NCBI GenBank assembly: GCA_021810565.1
Contig: JAJZIM010000032.1
Span: 1-33,897 of the forward strand
Origin: Bacillota bacterium
Lineage (GTDB): Bacteria > Bacillota > Sulfobacillia > JAJZIM01
DNA: 33,897 bases
Direction of reading: 5' to 3'
Part shown: in pieces, positions 18,730-20,812 of the stretch
Layout of the letters: each line of letters opens with the position of its first letter
Position numbering within the stretch: the first letter of the stretch is position 1
Notes under the pieces: model-generated
Seen by the model: the letters and a program-made list of their open reading frames with translations, nothing else
The model's database searches: none
Told to the model about the DNA's origin: nothing
Translations under genes and position numbers: made by a program

Positions 18730-18962
18730 TTAGGGTAGGCCCTGCGTTGCTCGGCGCAGGGCCTCGTCTTTGAGGAAGGCTAGGAGGGCGGCAGGATCGT
18801 TTCCGAGCAGCAGGTCGCAGGTGGTCAACCCATCCCCTGGCAGCCATGGGCCCCGGAGGCTTGGAGTGAAACACCGGAAAAGAAAATTATCAGCCGGAAA
18901 GGGAGGAGAAATCTTCGAGTCGCCTAAGAAGAAGCAATGGCGGATTCCAGTTTATTTAGGAA
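18730..18962 (-). pseudogene. Possible C-terminal gene remnant
   Basis: On the minus strand an open frame of some 77 codons ends at TAA (18730-18732). Its last ~35 codons read like real protein (TTCDLLLGNDPAALLAFLKDE, then ALRRATQGLP). It has no ATG and no good ribosome binding site, and it starts inside the end of the gene at 18924. I do not recognise the family. A perfect 10-bp inverted repeat, AGGCCCTGCG/CGCAGGGCCT (18737-18746 and 18755-18764), lies within it and could also end the plus-strand lipoprotein transcript. Confidence 0.3.
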
Positions 18963-19646
18963 GGCGACATGGGCATCCGACGCAAGGGGGGCGGCGCTAT
19001 AGAACTCCTGTCCCGGGCTGACCATGGTGCCCGCCCGAAGCGACAACGTCCAGACATTTTGTGGTCCTATTTGTCCTCCCGGAAAGTCCCCGAGGTAGGA
19101 GGCAGCCTCTTTCACGAAAACGGCATGGATTGCCGGCACGAAAACATCTTGTCGTGCGGCGGCTTCCCCGACGGCCTCCCTCGAGGCTTCAACGAGTTGT
19201 GGCGCCACCAAGGACTGGATCGGGATACGAAGGCGGATGTTGAGTTCGGAGAAATCCCGTTCGGCTTGTGGTTCGGGAAGCACCGAGGCCTTCCCCACCC
19301 CCGGCAATTGCGCCAACACCTGGCGCAATTTGGACCATACACGGTCGATGGCCGAAGACGGACCTCCGACACATATCGCCACACGCCGCGGTTCAAAGTA
19401 GAGATCTCGGATAGAAATATCCGGACCGCTGTCTTCCGACAGAACACCGAGTTGGAAAACCAGACCGACTTCTTGCGGCGGAGGTCCGAAGGTAGCCGGA
19501 GGGAGGCCAAGGCCTGAACCTCGGAATTGAAATGTGTCTCGGATGGCAGCCATGACCGCGGGGAGCATGAGCGTTTGTAGACGGATCCTATCCGGGGGGT
19601 ATTCGTAGCCGCGCCAGGCGGCAATAATGGCATTCACCTCGGCCAT
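18924..19646 (-). CDS. Third gene of a toxin-antitoxin operon, unknown function
   Basis: This 240-residue protein is not one I recognise. It has no signal peptide or membrane helix. The middle part (LYFEPRRVAICVGGPSSAID) reads as alternating beta strands and helices, and the C-terminal half has further strands. It starts at an ATG that shares one base with the stop of the antitoxin gene (TAATG), so it is translated with it. In toxin-antitoxin-chaperone systems the third gene encodes a SecB-like chaperone that protects the antitoxin. This protein is longer than SecB and shows no clear SecB motif. GC content is visibly lower than in the neighbouring housekeeping genes. Confidence 0.75.
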   Translation of the reverse strand: MAEVNAIIAAWRGYEYPPDRIRLQTLMLPAVMAAIRDTFQFRGSGLGLPPATFGPPPQEVGLVFQLGVLSEDSGPDISIRDLYFEPRRVAICVGGPSSAIDRVWSKLRQVLAQLPGVGKASVLPEPQAERDFSELNIRLRIPIQSLVAPQLVEASREAVGEAAARQDVFVPAIHAVFVKEAASYLGDFPGGQIGPQNVWTLSLRAGTMVSPGQEFYSAAPLASDAHVAFLNKLESAIASS

Positions 19647-20323
19647 TAAGAAGCCTCCCTTGTATCAAGGGGGTACATAGGGGGCAAAACGCTGGTATCT
19701 TCGTTAGCCTTTCGGCATGTCGGCGGAGACAATGTTTGGCCATGCAGGCTCAACCCAGGGGATTCGGGTTGTTCTAAATGAGGTATTTTCCCAAATAACC
19801 AGGAGCCTTGCGGCTGCGTAGAGGCCTGGGATAGTTGGTTAGACATCTTCCAGGGGGAGTGAAAATATGATGCTGCGAGATTTATCGGATCCACTTTTTC
19901 CGCTTGGCAATTTAGCATTGACGGCCCCGCCTGCCCTTGCTGTATTGAGCCGGTTGCCTCGAATTTGACGAAGGGTCTGACGGCGTCAAGAGAAGCAAGG
20001 GCCACATTGCTTAAAGATTCCACCCTTTCAAGAACCAAACCGGGCACAAATCCGGCGGCCAGGAAGTACCTGGCCATACGACGGAAAGAAGGAGAGCCGT
20101 CGATGTCACCCTCCAAGGCGGCCACGGCCGACTGCGTCGTATGCGTGCGCCGGGCCATGTCTGCCTGGGTCAGGCCTGCCCGCATCCGAGCCTCCCGCAA
20201 AGCAGCAATCACGTCATTCGTAAGGGTAGCCAAGAGATAGCCCGCCGCCGCACCTTCATCTTCTGCGATCTCGCGCCGGATAACATCGTCCAAGGAAAGG
20301 CTCTTAGTGGTCAAAACAACCAT
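19646..20323 (-). CDS. Xre-family antitoxin with a long C-terminal extension
   Basis: This 225-residue protein has a helix-turn-helix of the Xre/HigA type at about residues 40-95 (REARMRAGLTQADMARRT, then TTQSAVAALEGD). An extension of ~120 residues with no recognised domain follows. HigA antitoxins are usually near 100 residues, so the extension is notable. In chaperone-dependent systems a C-terminal tail of this kind is the chaperone-binding site. I prefer ATG 20323 because ACGGAGGGG precedes it; an ATG at 20353 gives ten more residues. It overlaps the toxin gene end by 20 nt. It would bind DNA to repress the operon and bind the toxin. Confidence 0.8.
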   Translation of the reverse strand: MVVLTTKSLSLDDVIRREIAEDEGAAAGYLLATLTNDVIAALREARMRAGLTQADMARRTHTTQSAVAALEGDIDGSPSFRRMARYFLAAGFVPGLVLERVESLSNVALASLDAVRPFVKFEATGSIQQGQAGPSMLNCQAEKVDPINLAASYFHSPWKMSNQLSQASTQPQGSWLFGKIPHLEQPESPGLSLHGQTLSPPTCRKANEDTSVLPPMYPLDTREAS

Positions 20324-20705
20324 CCTCCCCTCCGTAATCATGTCTGGATGCACGTCGGCACCATTCCATTGCCCGTTGCCTTGCTGTATTTAGGTGATTC
20401 GCTCGGTGTTGGGTGGCTGATTTCCGGCAGACATGAACCCAACACCCGACTTCGCTATCATCGCATTCCACCCAAAAAGCTCGAAAGTTCCGCCCCATCC
20501 GAATAGTTCGCAGAGTTACTCCTGCATTGCGATAGATTTGGGTGAGATCATAGCCGCTTCTGATTTCGTTTGGGCTAGACGCCACGGCCCATTCGATGCC
20601 AAAATTTTTCATTATACCCAGAAGAAACTGGTCGCCATTGCTGCTTTTCAGTCCTGTTACTTCTTTGCGGCAAGAGGGAAGGATTTCGAACTTAGCAGGT
20701 CTCAA
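20304..20705 (-). CDS. HigB/RelE-like toxin
   Basis: This 133-residue protein starts at TTG, 8 nt after AAGGAG. It looks like a RelE/HigB-type ribosome-dependent mRNA interferase: an N-terminal helix with CRKEVTGLKSSNGDQFLLGI, then TLRTIRMGRNFRAFWVE and the late basic motif VHVCRKSATQHRANHLNTAR, where HigB proteins have an F.KK...p..ei..A..R pattern. The order toxin then Xre antitoxin is that of higBA. Upstream lies an AT-rich stretch (20706-20758), a likely promoter region, though I cannot assign clear hexamers. Sequence similarity by eye is moderate. Confidence 0.65.
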   Translation of the reverse strand: MRPAKFEILPSCRKEVTGLKSSNGDQFLLGIMKNFGIEWAVASSPNEIRSGYDLTQIYRNAGVTLRTIRMGRNFRAFWVECDDSEVGCWVHVCRKSATQHRANHLNTARQRAMEWCRRASRHDYGGEDGCFDH

Positions 20706-20812
20706 TATCCCCTCTCCTTATCATAGTCGATCGGAGATAATTTGTATATAGGAAAAAAATGGCTAGACTTGGCGGGCCACCCCCCGAGCCTCCAACCGGG
20801 ACCGGCGGTTTT

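Follow-up and report, generated by a model that had tools for sequence, protein, structure and literature searches.

A TAC-like three-gene toxin-antitoxin operon whose third partner belongs to a new protein family

Our analysis of the window, the whole stretch of 33,897 nucleotides under study, identified a three-gene operon, best described as resembling toxin-antitoxin-chaperone (TAC) systems but having a protein of a new family as its third partner. On balance, we believe that this is a tripartite system in which the antitoxin depends on a protector, the third protein P3, which is not SecB by sequence. This view is based on the operon anatomy, the conserved linkage of P3 to toxin-antitoxin pairs, a signature in the tail and end of the antitoxin, the presence of P3 with two toxin-antitoxin families, purifying selection, and the lack of a sequence relation to SecB, all of which were observed. 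The features of the operon are:

20720..20748, minus strand: promoter-like site TATACA-17-TATGAT
20304..20705, minus strand: toxin-like gene, 133 aa, TTG start, weak Gp49/HigB similarity
19646..20323, minus strand: Xre-family antitoxin, 225 aa from the ATG at 20323, with a helix-turn-helix (HTH, PF13560) in its N-terminal half
19649..20011, minus strand: antitoxin tail, the C-terminal ~121 aa, a proposed counterpart of the ChAD chaperone-addiction region
19649..19660, minus strand: end of the antitoxin, with R-E-A-S as its final four residues, a weak version of an A-A/S/G end and a proposed protease signal
18924..19646, minus strand: P3, the third protein, 240 aa, of a so far undescribed family

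A sequence-only reading had described three tightly overlapping genes on a lower-GC island. The open reading frames and both overlaps were confirmed at these positions, with exactly 20 nt shared by the toxin and Xre genes and exactly 1 nt, inside TAATG, shared by the Xre gene and P3. Plausible ribosome binding sites precede all three starts (AAGGAG for the toxin TTG, GGAGGGGAGG for the antitoxin ATG at 20323, and GGGAGG for the P3 ATG at 19646). The island was equally apparent, with a GC content of 0.50-0.59 in the operon versus about 0.66 in two flanking genes, and a third-position GC of 0.47-0.61 versus 0.90-0.92; the operon therefore looks imported. The promoter-like site precedes the toxin start by ~15 nt, and this single occurrence is suggestive at most, since 0.8 such sites were expected by chance. 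Just upstream of the operon, the window also encodes a nucleotidyltransferase of the Polbeta/MNT kind (PF18765; 20813-21268, minus strand), for which no obvious HEPN partner was seen.

The first gene had been read as a HigB/RelE-like toxin. It resembles HigB in size and position and showed a weak similarity to Pfam Gp49 (E=0.27, below the cut-off); membership in HigB/RelE was not confirmed, and no family threshold was reached. Comparison with the Gp49 proteins of the class by hhalign gave 0.8%, which is not significant, and a single-sequence AlphaFold2 model had a pLDDT of 44. Homologs of the protein have a common C-terminal W...K...A..R pattern. We refer to it as a predicted toxin that is HigB-like by context only.

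The antitoxin was correctly described as an Xre protein with an unusual tail of ~120 residues: its HTH matched PF13560 (HTH_31) with 30.5 bits against a cut-off of 27, and 121 aa follow it. Among the P3-linked Xre antitoxins, 39-166 aa were found beyond the HTH region. The sole apparently intact homologous two-gene locus without P3 (G078) encodes a tail of 23 aa that ends in VSL (G135, located at a contig end, says little), and antitoxin tails were also short in G007 and G122-C46, where P3 has been lost and the toxin is damaged too. The dN/dS of the tail was 0.28-0.35, versus 0.05 in the N-terminal HTH part, and comparison of the antitoxin tails revealed no common sequence motif for P3 to bind. 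The ends of the P3-linked antitoxins were TAA, VAA (four), DAA, LAS, LAG and EAS, with ASA for the HicB of G085; the window's own antitoxin ends in REAS, not AA, and the motif is missing in G009 (GTN) and in the HicB of G086 (RTP). An A[ASG] end was found in 9 of 12 P3-linked antitoxins versus 7 of 269 background sequences, and an AA end in 6 of 12 versus 1 of 269, the background being long open reading frames from 20 stretches of related genomes of the class. The direction of this enrichment is clear, but since the P3 loci are partly related, p-values of about 1e-10 make it look stronger than it is; moreover, the exact end motif was fixed after the sequences had been seen, LAA and VA being already known for TAC.

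Searches of Pfam, NCBIfam, PADLOC and PHROGs gave no match for P3, the PDB gave none above chance, and no meaningful Pfam or NCBIfam match was obtained for the 11 members scanned. A first search yielded one relative, 32% identical, from a different family of the class; a two-row profile then detected homologs in 13 of the 154 class genomes. These genomes belong to eight families, of which seven have full-length copies. In a phylum-wide sample of 398 genomes the window's own copy was the sole find, and relatives were absent from the genome contig scans, the viral contigs, and the plasmid and phage collections. With a dN/dS of 0.07-0.10, P3 is under strong purifying selection. A single-sequence AlphaFold2 model of the protein had a mean pLDDT of 34. 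An internal duplication suspected by eye received no support from hhalign of the two halves, and a supposed resemblance to TIGR04255 was given up, this family not being among the NCBIfam matches of any P3 member; a search of 61 relatives gave no match, but missed the controls likewise and is therefore uninformative.

The earlier reading had proposed a search for the same triplet in other genomes, and would have been refuted had the third gene not stayed with the pair. The search did not refute it: each of the 12 full-length P3 copies (including the G090 copy, which has a short assembly gap) was the next gene after an antitoxin, at a distance of -1 to +15 nt, and no intact orphan P3 was found among the copies recovered in the class. 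At nine loci, the window and eight further ones, the upstream toxin is of the same family as the window's. At two others (G085 and G086) P3 is preceded by HicA and HicB, with HicB (PF05534) recognized in both and HicA (PF07927) over the cut-off in one and weak in the other, and in G009 a contig end cuts the locus before the toxin. The arrangement is not a product of chance, since further families of the class have it too and P3 is under purifying selection. The nearest relative of the window's P3 is the HicAB-linked one in G086 (54% identity), although the window's P3 itself has HigBA-like partners. The P3 tree needs two changes of partner type, with 20% of bootstrap trees needing just one; P3 has thus probably, though not certainly, changed its toxin-antitoxin family more than once. 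G079, G134 and G122-C123 hold broken P3 copies, which are relics, and further relics of P3 systems (L070, L034 and L069, in G122 and G007) consist of stop-bearing toxin fragments, a tail-less Xre gene, or a lone C-terminal fragment of P3. In two genomes (L025 in G121 and L144 in G120) the P3 locus adjoins a TIR-domain protein (PF13676) and a probable restriction-modification helicase/methylase, a hint of defence surroundings in some genomes only. Among the P3 loci, some have a TIR protein or DNA methylases nearby (L025, L144, L030) and others sit amid housekeeping genes, and because of these mixed neighbourhoods a defence-island context was left out of the evidence.

In the papers cited here, a SecB-like chaperone is the defining component of TAC systems; by binding the ChAD, a variable extension at the C-terminus of HigA, HicB or MqsA, it keeps the antitoxin from aggregating and from being degraded (PMC5105189, PMC6377645). 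HigBA and HicAB are among the three toxin-antitoxin families that are paired with SecB in this way (PMC5105189), and TAC antitoxins are reported to end in LAA, or in VA for HigA1, as ClpXP signals (PMC11618068, PMC8165232). The layout and antitoxin tail of the window's operon had been said to recall these systems, and its anatomy agrees in the C-terminal tail, the degron-like end and the exchange between HigBA-like and HicAB pairs. As in HigB1-HigA1-SecB-TA of M. tuberculosis, HigBAC, HicABC, MqsRAC and CmdTAC, one operon holds toxin, antitoxin and third gene in this order, the antitoxin (Xre or HicB) has a variable C-terminal extension, the small-hydrophobic ends resemble ClpXP signals across the family, and the third gene is common to HigBA- and HicAB-type pairs. 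The operon differs from TAC in that P3, at one and a half times the length of SecB, shows no detectable similarity to it, and in that the toxin is only weakly HigB-like. Classical two-gene HigBA shares the order of toxin first and Xre antitoxin second, but the locus in the window has in addition a third gene and an antitoxin tail, and its toxin remained below every family cut-off. As in HicABC, P3 is found behind HicAB in G085 and G086, whereas at other HicAB loci of the class the third gene is of the SecB-like or the 'HGAWGG' kind. Three-gene toxin-antitoxin operons also include paaR-paaA-parE and omega-epsilon-zeta, in which the third gene is a DNA-binding regulator; P3 shows no DNA-binding domain. 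SecB-type loci were present in 9 of 154 genomes of the class, and at those that are not HicAB loci the preceding genes end in LAA, EAA, TAA, SAA, SAA, LVA and NVA (one in AVG). Since these ends are like those at P3 loci, the antitoxin signature is common to both kinds of system. HicB antitoxins with SecB-like partners, in the class loci that were read, had no such end signature, which fits the exception in G086.

The closest alternative is that P3 is an extremely divergent SecB that has escaped structural detection, which would make the operon an ordinary TAC system. The functional parallels to TAC are strong, and identity among TAC SecBs can be as low as 14-19% (PMC5105189). However, the third protein had been described as not evidently SecB, and every sequence comparison upheld this. 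A search with PF02556 (SecB) found nothing in G000, none of 11 P3 members had a SecB hit, P3 lacks the PYxR...LP signature of SecB and has about 240 aa versus about 150, and hhalign against the SecBs of the class gave a probability of 0.2%. Five third proteins from HicAB loci served as a positive control, and the same method recovered them as divergent SecB (83%, E 9e-6), although neither of the two that were scanned against Pfam had matched it. P3 was similar to neither of the two other HicAB third-gene families, and its comparison with these five proteins gave 0.4%. By sequence, P3 is not SecB, and we consider a hidden SecB unlikely. Because homology to SecB was tested for and not found, the operon is not a strict member of TAC.

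Still less likely, in our opinion, is that the target of P3 is the toxin or the operator and not the antitoxin tail, P3 being a transcriptional co-regulator in the manner of PaaR or a second antitoxin. Three-component operons of the paaR-paaA-parE kind do exist (PMC7167474) and P3 is co-translated with the antitoxin, but no DNA-binding domain was recognized in 11 P3 members, two unrelated toxin types (HicA and HigB-like) are served by the same protein, and long antitoxin tails accompany it. Several invariant charged or polar residues (R80, R88, R204, S217, H226) would suit an effector or enzyme, that is, a second toxin or a phage-activated sensor held by the same antitoxin. Nevertheless, the invariant residues of P3 are mostly structural-looking (G, P, F, L), it matches no enzyme family, and in G007 the toxin is disrupted and P3 gone, as expected of a protector rather than of an independent effector; we regard this idea as very improbable. 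Finally, P3 might be cargo, a chance neighbour riding with the toxin-antitoxin pair, in line with the horizontally acquired look of the operon (foreign third-position GC, patchy distribution). This can hardly be reconciled with a position behind the antitoxin in 12 of 12 cases, conserved start/stop coupling, seven taxonomic families and two toxin-antitoxin types.

For the preferred reading, a TAC-like system with P3 as protector of the antitoxin, we infer toxicity, binding of P3 to the tail, protection from proteolysis and a trigger along the following lines. The toxin would be bound by the Xre antitoxin, which probably also binds the operon's own promoter. The long variable tail and the small-hydrophobic C-terminus would render the antitoxin unstable and a target for a protease of the ClpXP type. 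P3, whose translation appears coupled to that of the antitoxin, would bind and shield the tail, so that the toxin stays neutralised; its holdase or protective activity is one that we purely infer. Stress or a phage product could then titrate P3, upon which the antitoxin would be degraded and the toxin released. Phage proteins have been reported to titrate the chaperone of TAC systems and thereby free the toxin (PMC11618068; for higBAC, PMC11980606).

With less than even confidence, we further propose that P3 may represent a second, independently evolved class of antitoxin chaperone. A protein of non-SecB fold would then have converged on the SecB role and, through selection for long antitoxin tails with protease signals, have taken over HigBA-like and HicAB pairs. 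The P3 locus suggests that chaperone-addicted toxin systems arose also with a helper whose sequence is unrelated to SecB. If true, a non-SecB partner in the SecB slot would mean that chaperone addiction evolved more than once and that toxins can generally be controlled in this way, with or without SecB. P3 would also be a new family in which to look for the phage sensing that has been reported for CmdC and HigC, and what a toxin-antitoxin chaperone needs to be would become directly testable with P3 systems.

The survey of the class also brought up third genes of other kinds. Five loci (L100, L102, L105, L106 and L108, in G047, G067, G038, G099 and G077) have HicAB followed by very divergent SecB-like proteins and represent unannotated HicABC systems. 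At four others (L095, L096, L098 and L103, in G024, G017, G122 and G023), HicAB is followed by a gene of about 105-140 aa with an 'HGAWGGIGPRGEIVxYLYQD'-like motif; the one that was scanned had no Pfam match, and these 'HGAWGG' genes are a possible further family of third partners. In three SecB loci (L061, L062 and L064, in G024, G001 and G007), the open reading frame before SecB has a 'GYHGC...GDGVYFFE'-like motif, and by its look it may encode a toxin of the ADP-ribosyltransferase type, which would make these loci possibly CmdTAC-like.
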